Assembly: GCA_003285105.1 (NCBI GenBank)
Contig: CP030158.1
Location: 3,706,449-3,770,448 of the forward strand
Source: Roseithermus sacchariphilus
GTDB lineage: Bacteria; Bacteroidota; Rhodothermia; Rhodothermales; MEBIC09517
Length of the DNA stretch: 64,000 bases
Reading direction: 5' to 3'
Shown here: one piece after another, positions 39,537-58,746 of the stretch
How positions within the stretch are numbered: position 1 is the first letter of the stretch
Layout of the letters: each line of letters opens with the position of its first letter
Translations under genes and position numbers: made by a program
Notes under the pieces: generated by a model
Databases searched by the model: none
What the model was told of the DNA's origin: nothing
The model's input: the letters and a program-made list of their open reading frames with translations, nothing else

Positions 39537-41094
<1,558 letters not shown>

Positions 41095-41220
41095 GCTCAT
41101 CTTTCTCTCGATACCGGATCGGTCCGATACCGGAGTAGGATTTGGCACCTTTCCTCGCCGGAGGCGAAGGCGGTTGCCAGGGCTTCGCAGGGCCTAGTCC
41201 CTCCACCCTTCTAGATGAGC
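41095..41220 (-). ncRNA. SAM-I (S-box) riboswitch aptamer upstream of metY
   Basis: On the minus strand the leader opens with GCTCATCT and closes with AGATGAGC (P1, 8 pairs). Inside are the conserved S-box blocks G-G-T-G-G-A-G-G-G-A-C-T, G-C-G-A-A-G-C-C-C, T-G-G-C-A-A-C-C, A-A-G-G-T-G-C-C-A-A-A-T-C-C and G-A-G-A-G-A-A-A-G. Two further stems fill the space. SAM binding stabilises P1 and frees the terminator at 41030-41068. It controls metY, and through the tight gene order probably metX, aspartokinase and asd. Confidence 0.97.
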
Positions 41221-41468
41221 TGTCAGAAACATCGTTTCATGCGGCGTCCTACACGAGCCATCGGTGCGTGTTCCATCGACCCGCATTTTTTTTGACGACC
41301 GGCGCGGAAGACCGGGAGCGAGGCGCGGAGGGCCGGGTCGAAAGCCCTCTGCTCGGGATACGACGGCTCTTTCCGTGATACGACGGTGGCCTGGTTTGCG
41401 ATAGAGGATGCAGACCGTCCCCCGCACGGCGTCTCGTCCACCCCAGGTCCACTCGCTCCCTGCCTGCC

Positions 41469-51252: not shown

Positions 51253-51975
51253 ATGCCTGACCCCACCCTCCACGTTCATCCCGACCCGGAAGCCCTGGGC
51301 CGGGCCGCTGCCGGGCAGATCGTGCAGTGGTTGCACGAGGCCCCGGCGGACCGGCCGCTGAGCCTCGTCCTGGCCGGCGGCTCCACCCCGGCCCCGTGCT
51401 ACCGCCACCTGGCGACGACCTTCCGCGATGCCGTCCCCTGGCACCGGCTCTACCTGTTCTGGGGCGACGAACGCGTCGTCCCCCGGGACGACCCGGCGAG
51501 CAACTTTCGCATGGCGCTGCACACGCTGATCCAGCACGTCCCCATCCCCCCTGAGCACGTGCATCGGATGCCGACGGACGGCGCTCCTCCGACGGTGGCG
51601 GCGCGCGCCTATGAGGCGACCCTCCGCGCCTTCTTCGATGCGCAGAGCGACGACCGCTTCGACGTGACGCTGCTCGGCATGGGAGCGGACGGACACACCG
51701 CCTCGCTCTTCCCGAACGATCCGATCCTGCAGGAACGCGAGGCCTGGGTGTGCCCTGTGGAGGCGCCCTCGTACATGACCCCCACCCGGCGCCTGACCCT
51801 CACCGTACCCCGCCTCAACCGAAGCCGGCACGTGCTCTTTCTGGTGGCGGGCGAAGCCAAACGCGCGCCCCTGCGACGCATCCTCACCGAGCCCCCCACC
51901 GACGCCCTGCCCGCCAGCCGCATCCAGGCCACCGACACGCTGGCCTGGTTCGTAGATGCCGCAGCCCGCCCTTGA
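51253..51975 (+). CDS. pgl: 6-phosphogluconolactonase
   Basis: A 240-residue enzyme of the DevB/SOL type, hydrolysing 6-phosphogluconolactone. S-L-V-L-A-G-G-S-T-P is at about residues 37-46, then L-F-W-G-D-E-R-V-V-P and L-G-M-G-A-D-G-H-T-A-S-L-F-P, all family signatures. Starts at 51232 and 51220 are also possible: the region has a 21-base tandem duplication including ATG-CCT-GAC, so ATG occurs at 51232 and 51253. The second is chosen because it lies after the zwf stop. Zwf, Pgl and the 6PGDH-like protein form one operon. Confidence 0.93.
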   Translation: MPDPTLHVHPDPEALGRAAAGQIVQWLHEAPADRPLSLVLAGGSTPAPCYRHLATTFRDAVPWHRLYLFWGDERVVPRDDPASNFRMALHTLIQHVPIPPEHVHRMPTDGAPPTVAARAYEATLRAFFDAQSDDRFDVTLLGMGADGHTASLFPNDPILQEREAWVCPVEAPSYMTPTRRLTLTVPRLNRSRHVLFLVAGEAKRAPLRRILTEPPTDALPASRIQATDTLAWFVDAAARP

Positions 51976-51990: not shown

Positions 51991-52019
51991 TTGATCTTTC
52001 TGGCAACGGCCCCTATCGT
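51991..52019 (+). promoter_or_regulatory. Promoter of the arginine leader and argGCDF'B operon
   Basis: TTGATC at 51991-51996 and TATCGT at 52014-52019 are separated by exactly 17 bases, a good sigma70-like promoter. The -10 element ends 15 bases before the ATG of the leader ORF, so transcription would begin at about 52026. It starts 15 bases after the pgl stop. Confidence 0.6.
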
Positions 52020-52034
52020 TTCACCCCTGCAACC

Positions 52035-52139
52035 ATGACCTGCTCCCCGCTGCATATCGCCCGCATCACCAGCCGACGCCGCCGACGTGCGGCGTCCACG
52101 CCCGCGCTGGAATCGGCGGCTGCCCGGGGTCTTCGCTAG
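52035..52139 (+). CDS. Arginine-rich leader peptide of a putative attenuator
   Basis: A 34-codon ORF (ATG 52035, TAG 52137-52139). Codons 14-18 (52074-52088) are five successive Arg codons (CGA CGC CGC CGA CGT), and Arg also occurs at codons 10, 31 and 34, so eight of 34 residues are Arg. It lies between a promoter and an intrinsic terminator, directly in front of argG, the first gene of the arginine cluster. Ribosome stalling at the Arg codons when Arg-tRNA is scarce would be the signal. Arg runs also occur in non-coding frames of GC-rich DNA, so the peptide needs proof. Confidence 0.6.
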   Translation: MTCSPLHIARITSRRRRRAASTPALESAAARGLR

Positions 52140-52189
52140 CCCCTCCCATCGGCTGGCGTTTACGTTACCCGTTGCAAAAGGCGCTGATT
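52110..52189 (+). promoter_or_regulatory. Alternative pairing region of the arginine attenuator
   Basis: Region 2 (GAATCGGCGGCTG, 52110-52121) can pair back with region 1, the Arg-codon segment (C-A-G-C-C-G and C-G-C-C-G-A, 52070-52085). It can also pair forward: AATCGGCG (52111-52118) is complementary to CGCTGATT (52182-52189), eight pairs including one G-U. The latter covers most of the 5' arm of the terminator at 52176-52211, so the two structures exclude each other. This is derived by hand pairing, not by energy calculation. Confidence 0.5.
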
Positions 52190-52211
52190 CGACCCGGATC
52201 AGCGCCTTTTT
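52176..52211 (+). terminator. Intrinsic terminator (attenuator) before argG
   Basis: AAAAGGCGCTGAT (52176-52188) and ATCAGCGCCTTTT (52198-52210) form a perfect 13-pair hairpin with a 9-base loop, ending in five T. It ends 42 bases upstream of the argG ATG and 200 bases after the pgl stop. It is the strongest terminator in the window; its location inside the argG leader points to attenuation, not simple end of pgl. Confidence 0.93.
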
Positions 52212-52253
52212 GACGCTATACCATCCCCTGCATCCACTCAACCCGCTCGTTTC

Positions 52254-53465
52254 ATGGCTATCGTTCTCGCCTTCAGCGGAGGCCTCGACACATCGTTCTG
52301 CGTCCCCTACCTGATCGAAACTTATGGCGAACCCGTCCACACCGTCACGGTCAATACCGGCGGGTTGGCCGACGGCGAGGCCGACGCCCTGGCGGCTAAG
52401 TCCCGCCGGCTCGGCGCTGCCAGCCACCTCACCATCGACGCACGGCGGGATCTCTTCGACGACCACCTGAGCTACCTCATCAAAGGCAACGTCCTGCGCG
52501 GAGGGGTCTACCCCCTGTGCGTCGGCCCCGAGCGGGTCGTGCAGGCGCGCAAGGTGGTCGAAGCGGCCCGGCAACTCGGCGCGCGTGCGGTGGCCCACGG
52601 CTCGACCGGCGCGGGCAACGATCAGGTCCGCTTCGACGTGGCCCTGCGGATGCTGGCCAGCGATCTGGACGTCCTCGCTCCGATCCGCGAACTCGGATAC
52701 AGCCGCGAGCAATCGTCCGCCTACCTCGCCGAGCGCGGGCTGCCGGTCCCGCAGAAGACGACGACCTACTCCATCAACAAGGGCCTCTGGGGGACCACCA
52801 TCGGCGGCAAGGAAACGCACACGACGGACACGCCGCTGCCCGACGAAGCCTACCCGGATACCGTCCCCCCGGCCGCCAGCCCGGACGCCCCCCGCACGGT
52901 GACGCTGGGCTTCGAGGCCGGCCTCCCGACCCACCTCGACGGCGAAGCCATGGACCCGGTGACCCTCATCGAGACGCTCAACGATCTCGGTGCCGCCTAC
53001 GGCGTGGGGCGGGACATCCACGTGGGGGACACGATCCTGGGCATCAAGGGCCGCGTCGGCTTCGAGGCCCCGGCCGCGCTGATCCTCATCCAGGCCCACC
53101 GGGAGCTGGAGAAGATCGTGCTCACGCGCTGGCAGCAGTATCAGAAAAGCCACCTGGCCGACTTCTACGGGATGCTGCTGCACGAGGGGCAGTACTTCGA
53201 TCCGGTGATGCGCGACATCGAGGCGTTCCTGGATTCCTCGCAGGAGGTCGTCACCGGGACGGTCACCGTACGCCTCTTCAAAGGGCACATCGCCGTGCAG
53301 GGCTGCCAGAGTCCGTTCTCGATGTTCAACACGGGCGTGGCGACCTACGGCGAGGAGAATGAGCTGTGGAACGGCCGCGACGCCCAGGGCTTCACCCGGA
53401 TCTACGGGCTCCAGGGGCTCCTCGCCGCCCGCGCCCGCGAACACGCGGCCTCCGAAACCACCTGA
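52254..53465 (+). CDS. argG: Argininosuccinate synthase
   Basis: A 403-residue enzyme that joins citrulline and aspartate using ATP. The N-terminus L-A-F-S-G-G-L-D-T-S (residues 5-14) is the nucleotide-binding loop. H-G-S-T-G-A-G-N-D-Q-V-R-F is the second signature and Y-S-I-N-K-G-L-W-G-T-T-I-G-G-K is typical of the Bacteroidota variant. It opens the arginine cluster and lies 42 bases after the attenuator-like terminator. In this type of pathway free citrulline is made by deacylation of acylcitrulline by argE. Confidence 0.97.
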   Translation: MAIVLAFSGGLDTSFCVPYLIETYGEPVHTVTVNTGGLADGEADALAAKSRRLGAASHLTIDARRDLFDDHLSYLIKGNVLRGGVYPLCVGPERVVQARKVVEAARQLGARAVAHGSTGAGNDQVRFDVALRMLASDLDVLAPIRELGYSREQSSAYLAERGLPVPQKTTTYSINKGLWGTTIGGKETHTTDTPLPDEAYPDTVPPAASPDAPRTVTLGFEAGLPTHLDGEAMDPVTLIETLNDLGAAYGVGRDIHVGDTILGIKGRVGFEAPAALILIQAHRELEKIVLTRWQQYQKSHLADFYGMLLHEGQYFDPVMRDIEAFLDSSQEVVTGTVTVRLFKGHIAVQGCQSPFSMFNTGVATYGEENELWNGRDAQGFTRIYGLQGLLAARAREHAASETT

Positions 53466-53476
53466 CCCGTCCCGCC

Positions 53477-54511
<1,035 letters not shown>

Positions 54512-54534: not shown

Positions 54535-55716
54535 ATGACCACGGCCGAGATCCAGCGGCTGGAAGATGCCTTCCAGTTGCCCACGTACAAGAAAATGCCC
54601 ATCGCGCTCGTGCGCGGCGAAGGCTGCCGCGTGTGGGACGCCGACGGAAACGCCTACTATGACTTCTACGGCGGCCATTGCGTCGCACTGCTCGGCCATT
54701 GCCCGCCGCGCGTCGTAGCGGCGGTGCAGGAGCAACTGGGCCGGCTCCTGTTCTACTCGAACGTGGTCTACAGCCCCGTGCGCGCCCGCGCTGCCGCGCT
54801 CCTGGCCGAGATGGCCCCCGACGGCCTCGGGCATGCCTTCTTCTGCAACTCCGGCACCGAGGCCAACGAGACGGCCCTGAAGCTGGCCCGCACGTGGACG
54901 GGCAAGACGGCCGTGATCGCCATGGAAGGGGACTTCCACGGCCGTACGCTGGGTAGCCTCGCGACGACCTGGGGCGAGCACTACCGCGCTCCTTACCGCG
55001 CCATCCTGCCCGAGACGATCTTCGTGCCCTTCGGAGAGGCCGACGCCGTGGCCCGCGTCCTGGCCGAACGCGACGACGTGGCCGCGATCATCCTGGAGCC
55101 CATCCAGAGCATGGCCGGCATCTTCGAGGCGCCGCCGGCCTTCTACCAGGCCCTCCGCCGGCTGTGCGACGCGCACGGCGTCGCGCTCATCTTCGACGAA
55201 GTGCAGACCGGCGTGGGCCGCACCGGGACGTTCTCCATCGCCGAGCAGTACGGCATCACCCCGGACCTCATCACGCTGGCCAAGAGTCTCGGCGCCGGGG
55301 TCCCCGTCGGGGCGGTGCTGGCCTCGGACGCCATCGCCGCCTCGGTCGGCTACGGCGACCAGGGGACGACCTTCGGCGGAGGCATGCTGGCCATGGCCGC
55401 CGTGACGGCCACGCTGGAGACGCTCCGCGACGAACGCCTCATGGAGCGGGCCGCTCACATCCATGCCCGCATCCGGGACGGCCTGCGCCCGCTCGTCTGC
55501 GACGTGCGCGGGCGGGGCTGCCTGATCGGGGTGGAACTGGACGGCCCGGCGGCCCCGGTGCTGGCCGCGCTGCGCGCCGAAGGCATCCTGGCGGGCGGCG
55601 CCTCCCATCCCCGTGTGATCCGTCTGATGCCGCCGCTGAACACCCCGGACGACGCCATCGACGCCCTCATCGCGGCCTTCCAGACCGTGCTGGCCTCGAA
55701 CCCCACCACCGCCTGA
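54535..55716 (+). CDS. argD: Acetylornithine aminotransferase
   Basis: A 393-residue PLP-dependent class III aminotransferase that makes N-acetylornithine from the semialdehyde. F-F-C-N-S-G-T-E-A-N-E-T-A-L-K-L (about 102-117), D-F-H-G-R-T-L-G, I-I-L-E-P-I-Q, L-I-F-D-E-V-Q-T-G-V-G-R-T-G and Lys250 in I-T-L-A-K-S-L-G are diagnostic. It is 23 bases after argC. In other pathways the same family uses N-succinyl or acetyl-lysine substrates; position fixes it here as argD. Confidence 0.95.
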   Translation: MTTAEIQRLEDAFQLPTYKKMPIALVRGEGCRVWDADGNAYYDFYGGHCVALLGHCPPRVVAAVQEQLGRLLFYSNVVYSPVRARAAALLAEMAPDGLGHAFFCNSGTEANETALKLARTWTGKTAVIAMEGDFHGRTLGSLATTWGEHYRAPYRAILPETIFVPFGEADAVARVLAERDDVAAIILEPIQSMAGIFEAPPAFYQALRRLCDAHGVALIFDEVQTGVGRTGTFSIAEQYGITPDLITLAKSLGAGVPVGAVLASDAIAASVGYGDQGTTFGGGMLAMAAVTATLETLRDERLMERAAHIHARIRDGLRPLVCDVRGRGCLIGVELDGPAAPVLAALRAEGILAGGASHPRVIRLMPPLNTPDDAIDALIAAFQTVLASNPTTA

Positions 55717-55759: not shown

Positions 55760-56788
55760 GTGTCTGCCTCCACCGCTTCGCTCCATCACCTCCTCGACTG
55801 GCACGAACTCGACGACGCGCTCTGGTTCGACCGTATCGACGCGGCGCTGCGCCACCATCGCGATCGCACCTGGTCGCAGAAAGCCCGGGGCAAGAGCCTC
55901 GGCCTGGTCTTCTTCAACCCCTCGCTCCGCACCCGGACGTCGATGGAGCTGGCCGGCGTCGAACTCGGAGCCCACGTCACCACGATCAACGTCGGGCAGG
56001 GGACGTGGGGCTTCGCCTGGGAAGACGGCGTCGTCATGGACGGAACGGAGGCCGAGCACATCCGTGAGGCCGTCGGCGTGCTCTCGCGCTACTACGACGC
56101 CCTCGGCGTGCGCGTCTTCGCCTCCGGGACGGACTACGAGCGGGACCGCGACGACGTGTTGCTCAAGACGTTTGCCGGGGCCGCCTCCGTGCCCGTCATC
56201 AACCTCGAATCGGCCTTCTACCATCCCTGCCAGGCCCTCGGGGACGCCGCCACGCTGATGACCCGCTTCGACGGACAGGTGGCCGGCAAGCGGTTCGTGC
56301 TGGCCTGGGCCACGCACCCCCGCCCCCTGCCGATGGCCGTCCCCAACTCGGCCCTGCTGGCGGCAGCCCGCCTCGGGATGCACGTGACCGTGGCCCGGCC
56401 CGACGCGTACGCGCTCGACCCGGGCATCATGGAGCAGGCCCGCCGGCATGCCGCCTCGCTGGGCGGGTCCGTCGAGGAGACGAACGACCTCGATGCCGCC
56501 TGCGAGGGGGCCGACGTGATCTATGCCAAGGCGTGGGCCGGCCCGCTGCGCTACACCGACCCGGAGCGAGAAGCGTCCCTGCGCACGGAAACCTACCGCG
56601 ACTGGCGCATCACGGCCGACCGGATGGCCCGCACCCGCAACGGGGCCTTCATGCATTGCCTGCCCGTGCGCCGCAACGTCGTGGTGGACGATGCCGTGCT
56701 CGACGGCCCCCACGCCATCCACTTGCTCCAGGCCGAGTTCCGCCTCCACGCGCAGAAGGCGATCCTGGAATACGTCTGGCAGCTCTGA
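55760..56788 (+). CDS. argF': N-acyl-L-ornithine carbamoyltransferase
   Basis: A 342-residue carbamoyltransferase. F-F-N-P-S-L-R-T-R-T-S (residues 51-61) is the carbamoyl phosphate loop, H-P-C-Q-A-L the second, and H-C-L-P-V-R-R-N the catalytic segment. W-A-T-H-P-R-P-L-P-M-A-V-P-N-S-A replaces the ornithine-specific loop and is typical of the acetyl- or succinylornithine carbamoyltransferases. Citrulline is thus made in acylated form. Which acyl group is used cannot be read with confidence. The start is GTG at 55760. It lies between argD and argB. Confidence 0.93.
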   Translation: MSASTASLHHLLDWHELDDALWFDRIDAALRHHRDRTWSQKARGKSLGLVFFNPSLRTRTSMELAGVELGAHVTTINVGQGTWGFAWEDGVVMDGTEAEHIREAVGVLSRYYDALGVRVFASGTDYERDRDDVLLKTFAGAASVPVINLESAFYHPCQALGDAATLMTRFDGQVAGKRFVLAWATHPRPLPMAVPNSALLAAARLGMHVTVARPDAYALDPGIMEQARRHAASLGGSVEETNDLDAACEGADVIYAKAWAGPLRYTDPEREASLRTETYRDWRITADRMARTRNGAFMHCLPVRRNVVVDDAVLDGPHAIHLLQAEFRLHAQKAILEYVWQL

Positions 56789-56799
56789 CGCCCCCCACG

Positions 56800-57594
56800 A
56801 TGTCCACCCTCCCCCCACCGACCCTGCTCAAGCTCGGCGGCACGCTGCTGGCCGACGAGGCGCTGCTCGACGCCATCTGGACGGCCGTGGCGACGCTGCG
56901 CCATGAAGGCCCCGTGCTGATCGTACACGGCGGCGGCCAGCAGGCTACCGCCCTCGCCCACCGCCTCGGCCACCAGCCCCGCATCGTCCGGGGCCGCCGC
57001 GTCACCTCGGACCTCGACCTGCAGATCGTGCAATGGACGATGCGGGGCGAGTTGAACAGCCACCTCGCGGCCGTGGCCGGACGCTACGGCATCCCGGCCG
57101 TCGGGCTCTGCGGCGTCGACGGCGGCACGCTCCAGGTGCACCGCCGCCCCCCCTGGTCCGTCGACGGCGAAACGGTCGACTTCGGCTGGGTGGGCGACGT
57201 GGACGGGGTCCGGCCGGACCTGCTCCGGCATCTGCTGGCCGGCGGCTTCGTCCCGGTCGTGGCACCCCTCGGCGTGGATGCGGACGGGCACATCTACAAC
57301 GTCAATGCGGACACGGTGGCCCTCGCTCTGGCCCGCGCCCTCGGCGCCGCCACCCTGCTGCTCGTCACCGACCGGAGCGGCGTGCAGCGCGACCTCGCCC
57401 GGCCGGATTCACTCCTGCCCACCATCGACCCGGCCACCTACGAAGCCGGTGTCGCCGAGGGCTGGATCGAGGGCGGGATGCAGGTGAAGCTGAAGGTTGC
57501 CTTCGACGCGCTCGATGCCGGCATCCCCGACGTGCGCATCGTCGGCGCCCACGACCTGCTCGCCCGGCGGCACGGCACCCGCATCGTGCGATAG
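56800..57594 (+). CDS. argB: Acetylglutamate kinase
   Basis: A 264-residue amino-acid kinase. L-L-K-L-G-G-T-L-L (residues 8-16) and V-L-I-V-H-G-G-G-Q-Q (about 39-48) bind ATP and substrate. N-V-N-A-D-T-V-A-L-A-L-A, L-L-L-V-T-D-R-S-G-V and G-G-M-Q-V-K-L-K-V-A-F-D-A-L complete the family pattern. The kinase phosphorylates N-acylglutamate, second step of the pathway. It lacks the N-terminal helix linked to arginine feedback in some hexameric NAGKs, in keeping with control by attenuation; this is only suggestive. The ATG at 56800 is used. It ends the first arginine operon. Confidence 0.94.
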   Translation: MSTLPPPTLLKLGGTLLADEALLDAIWTAVATLRHEGPVLIVHGGGQQATALAHRLGHQPRIVRGRRVTSDLDLQIVQWTMRGELNSHLAAVAGRYGIPAVGLCGVDGGTLQVHRRPPWSVDGETVDFGWVGDVDGVRPDLLRHLLAGGFVPVVAPLGVDADGHIYNVNADTVALALARALGAATLLLVTDRSGVQRDLARPDSLLPTIDPATYEAGVAEGWIEGGMQVKLKVAFDALDAGIPDVRIVGAHDLLARRHGTRIVR

Positions 57595-57598
57595 GCCG

Positions 57599-58651
57599 TC
57601 AGCCGTCCGAAGCGGAAGGCGTGGAGCCCCGGGGCGTCGACCGGCCGTTGCGGCGCGGGGCGACGGCCGGCGGGGCATCTGCGGCCGCGGTGCCGTCTCC
57701 ACCCGGCGCTCCGTAGCGCGCGGCCATGCGGTGCCAGAGCAGCGCGATCTGCTCGGGCGTGAGCCGCTCGAGATCGGACACCCCGCAGTAGTGCCGGGCC
57801 GCCACGTTCAGGCTTGCCCGAGACAGCCCGTACGCTTCCGCCTGCCGCAGCAGATCGTCCAGCCCCGGACCGGTCGGCTCCGGCGCGGCCTCATCCGCGA
57901 GCACGGCCGGCACTTCCGGCGCTTCCTCCGGCTCCGGCGGGGCGTCCAGCCGGCCGAGGAAGTCGGCAAACGTGGGGTTCACCAGCTCCAGGCCGATCGG
58001 GAAGGCGGGGCTGTTCGATTTGATGACCCGGGCCACCCGCACCGTCTCGAACCCGTCGACCCGGAGACTCAGTTCAACCATTACATCCACAAAATACTCC
58101 AGTCCCCCCACCGTCATGGGCAGCACCCGGCCCATCTCGTTCTCTTCCCGATCGTCTTTGCCCTTCGCCGGAATCTGATCGGTGATGACCACACAGGCCC
58201 CGCTGTCGATGCAGAGCCGGCGGAGCACCTCCTGGAAGACGACCTGGTCGTTCGCCAGATCCTCCGCGCTGAGCTGGGCCAGCGGGTCCGCCGTACGCTC
58301 GCGGACGGCCAGCAGGCTCTCGCGGTGCTTGCGGGCAAAGTACATGGCCCACGAGTCGAGCGCGTAGCAGCCGTACTCCTGCGCACGGCCCTCGCCTTCG
58401 AGCGCCCACTCGATGAACTCCGGCAACTCGTCGGGATGCCGGATCTCGATGGCGTCGAAGCGGCTGCCGTTGCTTCCCGGCAGCAGGCGGGCCTTGCGCT
58501 CGGTGTCGAAGAAGCAGAGCCGCCCGAGCCCGGCGTCCGCCAGCGACGCGGCGAAGACGCTCTTGCCGGTACCGGCCGCCCCGCGTACGGCGACGACCAG
58601 CCGGTGCCCGCGCGGGCGACGACTCAGGGGATTGATGCGTGTGCGTTCCAT
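57599..58651 (-). CDS. P-loop ATPase of the AAA_24 (phage Sak4-like) family
   Basis: A 350-residue protein on the minus strand, between argB and argE. Walker A is G-A-A-G-T-G-K-S (residues 24-31) and C-Y-A-L-D-S-W (about 95-101) fits Walker B. F-F-D-T-E-R-K-A-R and a region with I-T-D-Q-I-P-A-K-G match the AAA_24 family, which includes RecA-like phage single-strand annealing proteins (Sak4). The C-terminal third (about 220-350) is Pro/Glu/Ala-rich with an added helical segment (VAARHYCGVSDLERLTPEQIALLWHR) of unknown use. The start at 58651 is chosen. Its presence inside the arginine cluster is unexplained. Confidence 0.75.
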   Translation of the reverse strand: MERTRINPLSRRPRGHRLVVAVRGAAGTGKSVFAASLADAGLGRLCFFDTERKARLLPGSNGSRFDAIEIRHPDELPEFIEWALEGEGRAQEYGCYALDSWAMYFARKHRESLLAVRERTADPLAQLSAEDLANDQVVFQEVLRRLCIDSGACVVITDQIPAKGKDDREENEMGRVLPMTVGGLEYFVDVMVELSLRVDGFETVRVARVIKSNSPAFPIGLELVNPTFADFLGRLDAPPEPEEAPEVPAVLADEAAPEPTGPGLDDLLRQAEAYGLSRASLNVAARHYCGVSDLERLTPEQIALLWHRMAARYGAPGGDGTAAADAPPAVAPRRNGRSTPRGSTPSASDG

Positions 58652-58746
58652 GATGTCCCTCTCACGGTTGTTCAACCATCCCGGCCGTCGACGGCCTGCG
58701 TGGCCCTGCTCCGGCCGGGTCTGTGCTCCCCAACATACCCGACCGA

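Follow-up and report, generated by a model that had tools for sequence, protein, structure and literature searches.

Arginine synthesis is usually under ArgR control, and the argG locus of Roseithermus sacchariphilus (class Rhodothermia) raises the question of how the pathway could be regulated where this repressor is missing. The window, i.e. the whole 64,000-nucleotide stretch of DNA that was analysed, carries a spacer between pgl and argG in which an earlier note, made from the letters alone, had placed a ribosome-mediated transcription attenuator. Its premise, that ArgR-type repressors normally control arginine synthesis, stands as a general rule and sharpens the case here, as ArgR itself is absent: none of the 147 class genomes has the ArgR C-terminal domain (PF02863), for which eight control genomes were positive, and the N-terminal domain (PF01316) was found only in G036, on a probable contaminant contig, and in a five-copy element of G010. 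G036 was rejected as an ArgR-containing member, its argG being only 50% identical and outside the clade, and its genome having 4% contamination.

The promoter, the 34-codon ORF with five Arg codons, the terminator and the argG start all lie at the coordinates that had been claimed for them (Table 1). The promoter scored best of its shuffles (p 0.02) and predicts a transcription start at about 52026; no Shine-Dalgarno sequence is visible in the leader. The terminator has an energy z of −4.75, with no shuffle equally stable, and the distal part of the leader alone folds as the terminator. In a promoter and terminator scan under strict rules, neither of these two elements was called, and an Rfam scan of the window at gathering thresholds yielded no T-box, the only matches being a SAM riboswitch and a tRNA, both elsewhere. 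In the ribosome-free minimum-energy fold of the leader, the Arg codons pair with segment 2, a putative protector helix. The alternative pairing of segment 2 with the terminator 5′ arm is present as proposed, with nine pairs (one of them G-U) formed by GAATCGGCG with CGCTGATTC instead of the eight pairs given before, and its hybridisation was better than that of shuffled leaders (p 0.025). When the span 52092-52193, reaching from the edge of a stalled ribosome to the end of the terminator 5′ arm, was folded, the minimum-energy structure paired GAAUCGGCG (52110-52118) to CGCUGAUUC (52182-52190).

Table 1. Features of the argG leader and arg operon in the window, and example leader peptides of relatives
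Feature	Positions	Strand	Description
Leader promoter	51991-52019	+	−35 TTGATC 51991-51996, 17-nt spacer, −10 TATCGT 52014-52019
Leader ORF	52035-52139	+	MTCSPLHIARITSRRRRRAASTPALESAAARGLR; ATG at 52035, 34 codons, TAG 52137-52139
Regulatory codons, segment 1	52074-52088	+	Five consecutive Arg codons, CGA CGC CGC CGA CGT
Segment 2, antiterminator strand	52110-52118	+	GAATCGGCG; inside the 3′ part of the leader ORF
Segment 3, terminator 5′ arm	52182-52190	+	CGCTGATTC; partner is segment 2 or segment 4
Intrinsic terminator	52176-52211	+	AAAAGGCGCTGATTCG..CGGATCAGCGCCTTTTT; segments 3 and 4, then a five-U run
argG	52254-53465	+	Argininosuccinate synthase, first structural gene; TIGR00032, 334.6 bits (cut-off 268.2)
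argC	53477-54511	+	TIGR01850, 318 bits (cut-off 234)
argD-like	54535-55716	+	Acetylornithine aminotransferase; best NCBIfam matches acetylornithine transaminase, below cut-offs
argF′	55760-56788	+	N-acetylornithine carbamoyltransferase; NF003384, 447 bits (cut-off 288)
argB	56800-57594	+	TIGR00761, 183 bits (cut-off 151)
Leader peptide, L002			MQPVRPIRPVRRPRRPRGGGTGASCPVAVW
Leader peptide, L012			MKTLRRRRRFIAHFARHN
Leader peptide, L111			MTRQPTLIAPTTRRRARRVRRLHIASTARPASQASDE
Leader peptide, L161			MAKHTAHIARVRRSRRGGAPRRVNGRCVARKAV; another order of the class

The Arg run by itself is weak evidence, because, of the 20 terminator-like sites of the window, 4 (the leader's own site among them) have an ORF with at least five Arg in eight codons in front of them. 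The earlier note had warned that Arg runs are common in GC-rich non-coding frames and that conservation is the key test. The single-genome significance of the run was accordingly rejected as evidence, and the significance of the leader comes from its conservation across relatives. There, the same layout, namely an Arg-rich ORF of about 32 codons, a U-tailed hairpin and then argG, recurs in 59 of the 77 class genomes with an argG locus, or 59 of 63 outside the family f15, and spans 14 families and 28 genus groups (58 curated loci and additionally L017, which is nearly identical to L014). The comparison proposed in the earlier note thus comes out in favour of the attenuator. The geometry is near-constant, with medians of 32 residues for the ORF, 79 nt from the last Arg codon to the terminator and 40 nt from the terminator to argG, and the U-run hairpin sits at a constant position in nearly all members. 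A promoter shape just before the ORF was detected in 19 of the 28 genus groups (p ≤0.05), and the promoter scores of the relatives exceeded those of the adjacent upstream DNA (Wilcoxon p 5.5e-6). The distance from the end of the −10 box to the ORF start is short (15 nt in the window and 7-12 nt in most loci), so that the leader mRNA probably has almost no untranslated 5′ region.

The layout was absent from all 93 argG loci outside the clade, comprising other phyla and other Bacteroidota. Within the class it was absent from the 14 loci of f15, from L128 and L129, and from L021 and L136, where a PadR-like ORF abuts argG. Four changes suffice to explain the distribution of the layout on the ArgG tree, versus 23.8 with shuffled labels, which fits one gain and three losses. 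Family f15 lacks both the leader and ArgR, which is a point against reading the leader as an attenuator; the sister order (Balneola-type) likewise lacks both, so that ArgR loss by itself did not require an attenuator. Three f15 loci (L145, L155 and L158) retain a GC-rich hairpin like that of the leader, lacking a proper U-run, and several argG upstream regions of this family (among L145, L155, L158, L028 and L118) share a TGATCCA-type motif near argG.

Arg was the only one of the 20 amino acids that was clustered beyond dinucleotide shuffles among 40 leaders (p ≤0.05 in 27 of 40 loci; Fisher over families 4e-9; other residues ≥0.25), a result flattered by the picking of these leaders by eye for Arg content before the test. 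An unselected detector, which called a terminator wherever five or more Arg in eight codons occurred in an ORF before it, is free of this bias and fired at 40 of 77 argG loci, versus 2 of 28 hisG and 0 of 25 ilvB loci in the same clade. A comparable examination of the carA upstream regions gave 1 of 29 loci, and no conserved Arg leader was found in the carA, hisG and ilvB control regions. The leaders hold a median of 7 Arg among 32 residues. Within genus groups, 69 of 78 Arg columns were conserved versus 123 of 290 other columns, and the ratio of synonymous to other changes was 28:29 at Arg columns versus 135:679 elsewhere (odds ratio 4.9; the counts are pairwise and hence not independent). 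This excess of synonymous change at conserved Arg columns points to an Arg run that is translated, and not just to an RNA motif.

The choice of codons is likewise biased. Among leader Arg codons CGA, CGT and CGC are favoured (together 91% versus 65% in argG), CGG and AGR are avoided, and CGA alone accounts for 46% versus 9% in argG, a preference that agrees in 27 of the 28 genus groups (p 4e-6). The tRNA-Arg anticodons of the genome are ACG, CCG, CCT and TCT, with no TCG anticodon gene among the tRNA loci scanned (several long Ser/Leu-type loci lay outside the scan); CGA, CGT and CGC thus probably share a single inosine-bearing tRNA, tRNA-Arg(ACG). The bias fits the theory of selective charging, which expects control codons to be those of the most starvation-sensitive isoacceptor (PMC1183508). 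A CGACG-type sequence may also be favoured by the need to pair with segment 2.

These data bear on whether the nascent peptide, rather than the charging of tRNA, could be the sensor, either as an arrest peptide binding free arginine in the ribosome tunnel or as a polybasic run slowing ribosomes regardless of tRNA charging, with the terminator or argG translation as the target. Precedents are the arginine attenuator peptide of fungi and the SpeFL-type sensors (PMC6386406 for speF), the Arg runs are polybasic, and a loose pattern, H-I-x-x-T-R-R-R-x-R-R-V, recurs in the leader peptides. However, the peptides hardly align between families beyond the Arg cluster, what is conserved is how many Arg codons there are and how far they lie from segment 2, and the strong CGA bias points to decoding. 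We therefore regard sensing by the peptide as unlikely, and attenuation through charged tRNA-Arg as the preferred reading.

Directly downstream of the leader lies the operon argG-argC-argD-argF′-argB, and upstream of it in the window are the zwf-pgl genes, with pgl ending at 51975. In the relatives checked, argG heads an argG-C-D-F-B(-E-H) operon, with argE and argH in the row in several, and neither pgl nor zwf was found upstream of argG, so the element travels with argG. The position of the hairpin between pgl and argG and the commonness of Arg-rich chance ORFs in the window would suit a plain terminator of the zwf-pgl genes next to a chance ORF in a GC-rich spacer. But the element stays with argG in relatives that have no upstream pgl, a promoter lies between pgl and the leader ORF, and such a terminator would leave the Arg-specific enrichment, the preferential synonymous change and the co-variation described below unaccounted for; this explanation is very improbable and is largely refuted by the conservation.

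Some neighbouring genes differ among the relatives. Between argB and argE of the window, an ORF for a RecA/AAA-like ATPase is encoded on the opposite strand (57599-58675, −), with no NCBIfam match and only weak Pfam AAA matches; it looks inserted, because argE directly follows argB in relatives. Rhodothermus-type genomes carry a gene for a 364-aa P-loop protein between argG and argC (L243 6089-7183, −) that is absent in the window. As argJ was not found in G000 and 29 relatives and the carbamoyltransferase is of the N-acetylornithine type, a linear arginine route via N-acetylcitrulline is suggested.

Hybridisation to the terminator 5′ arm was computed, locus by locus, for the strand that links the Arg codons to the terminator. 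The combined family score reached a z of −4.9, with −31 to −35 kcal/mol in the Rhodothermus-type family f3 versus about −18 for shuffles; no good antiterminator was found by hybridisation in L010, L015, L025 and L130. After correction for composition, exchanging antiterminator strands between genera cost 2.6-2.8 kcal/mol relative to the pairing of each strand with the arm of its own locus. None of 4000 permutations equalled the native pairing, and the result held without f3 and without f10, versus p 0.23 for the same swap test on shuffled strands. The antiterminator and terminator strands therefore evolve together. The terminator 5′ arm was paired upstream at 0.76 with the ribosome stalled versus 0.37 with the ribosome at the stop codon, and the shuffled control gave 0.60 (p 6e-6); for the leader of the window itself the difference between the two ribosome states was modest (0.75 versus 0.61). 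Even when a stalled ribosome was included, equilibrium folding favoured the terminator in most leaders (median 0.93), and the choice of fold must therefore be kinetic, as holds in known attenuators too. Termination by Rho or mRNA decay under control of leader translation and with no intrinsic terminator, as for Salmonella speF orf34, which senses arginine via two Arg codons (PMC6386406), has very little probability here, given that nearly all members have a strong U-run hairpin in the same position, that its 5′ arm co-varies with the antiterminator, and that the eight leader peptides sampled had no Pfam match (E ≤1) and hence none to DUF2618 (PF10940).

The Arg enrichment, the synonymous change, the co-variation of antiterminator and terminator and the dedicated promoter all support the attenuator put forward in the earlier note, and the leader is very probably a ribosome-mediated attenuator through which the level of charged tRNA-Arg controls transcription of the arg operon. 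The elements, their conservation, their Arg specificity and the co-varying alternative pairing are read from compared sequences; that the leader is translated, that ribosomes stall on it, that the fold is chosen kinetically and that the cell responds accordingly is inferred, as follows. Polymerase would start at about 52026 and, judging from the promoter, produce a short leader with the ORF almost at its 5′ end. With ample Arg-tRNA, the ribosome would clear the Arg codons and continue to the stop codon, where it would cover segment 2, or segment 2 would re-pair behind it with the Arg-codon segment; with segment 2 unavailable, the hairpin 52176-52210 would form and transcription would end at about 52211. 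Under a shortage of Arg-tRNA, the ribosome would stall at the Arg codons with segment 2 just past its leading edge, and the free segment 2 would capture the emerging terminator 5′ arm, allowing read-through into argG-argC-argD-argF′-argB.

A broader proposal, which we favour by a narrow margin over its negation, is that an order that lost ArgR has, from its common ancestor onwards, governed arginine biosynthesis through a leader-peptide attenuator which is tuned to tRNA-Arg(ICG) via the rare codon CGA and whose leader mRNA is (nearly) leaderless, and that this would be the first arginine-specific member of its kind, with a protein repressor replaced by ribosome-based sensing. The attenuator as such would be an established mechanism, new in the amino acid that it senses and in its lineage, a clade without ArgR. 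Ribosome-mediated attenuators control the trp, his, leu, ilv, thr and pheST operons of enterobacteria. Those of trp are also present in Actinobacteria, where a survey reported none for arginine (PMC1262725). With trp/his-type attenuators the leader shares a short ORF with codons for the product, a putative protector, an antiterminator, a terminator, a U-run and a biosynthetic operon, but it differs in sensing arginine, in its occurrence in the class Rhodothermia with no sequence relation, in an ORF predicted to lie a few nucleotides from the 5′ end with no Shine-Dalgarno sequence visible, and in the absence of ArgR. The nearest precedent for sensing by Arg codons is the Salmonella/E. coli speF leader (orf34/SpeFL), in which consecutive Arg codons sense arginine by ribosome pausing (PMC6386406); unlike the leader here, it has only two Arg codons in a DUF2618 peptide upstream of speF instead of argG, and its target, ornithine decarboxylase, is regulated through decay by RNase G and termination by Rho. 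T-box leaders of Firmicutes, cited for arginine genes by PMC1262725, also control arginine genes at the RNA level via tRNA charging, but bind tRNA directly and have no ORF, and the ArgR/AhrC repressor, which controls the same genes in most bacteria, is a protein that binds DNA and is missing from this genome as from the class. In the open full-text literature searched, no attenuator of arginine biosynthesis is described, in agreement with the earlier note, which knew of no Arg-codon attenuator of this kind in this group; a prior prediction is possible in Lopatovskaya et al. 2010 (Mol Biol 44:128), a wide-ranging comparison of attenuators cited in PMC4833913 and lying outside that scope. The attenuator would add arginine to the short list of amino acids sensed by leader-peptide attenuation and explain arginine regulation without a repressor in a clade lacking ArgR, and its approximately 59 natural variants offer material for testing which synonymous codons make good sensors under selective charging (PMC1183508).

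Other candidate control elements were observed as well. The SAM riboswitch of the window (RF00162, 75.7 bits; 41036-41221, −) has a terminator-like hairpin and is followed downstream by an O-acetylhomoserine sulfhydrylase-like ORF (39537-40961) and a homoserine acetyltransferase-like ORF, both named from sequence, and is an ordinary methionine control element. Upstream of carA (L210-L237), a terminator-like hairpin before or overlapping the carA start was found without an Arg leader in 20 of 29 relatives and is possibly another attenuator. In L259 (G004), a short ORF, MLHFHHHSRPTPSDL, followed by a terminator lies about 96 bases before the hisG match, a possible His attenuator seen in G004 only.
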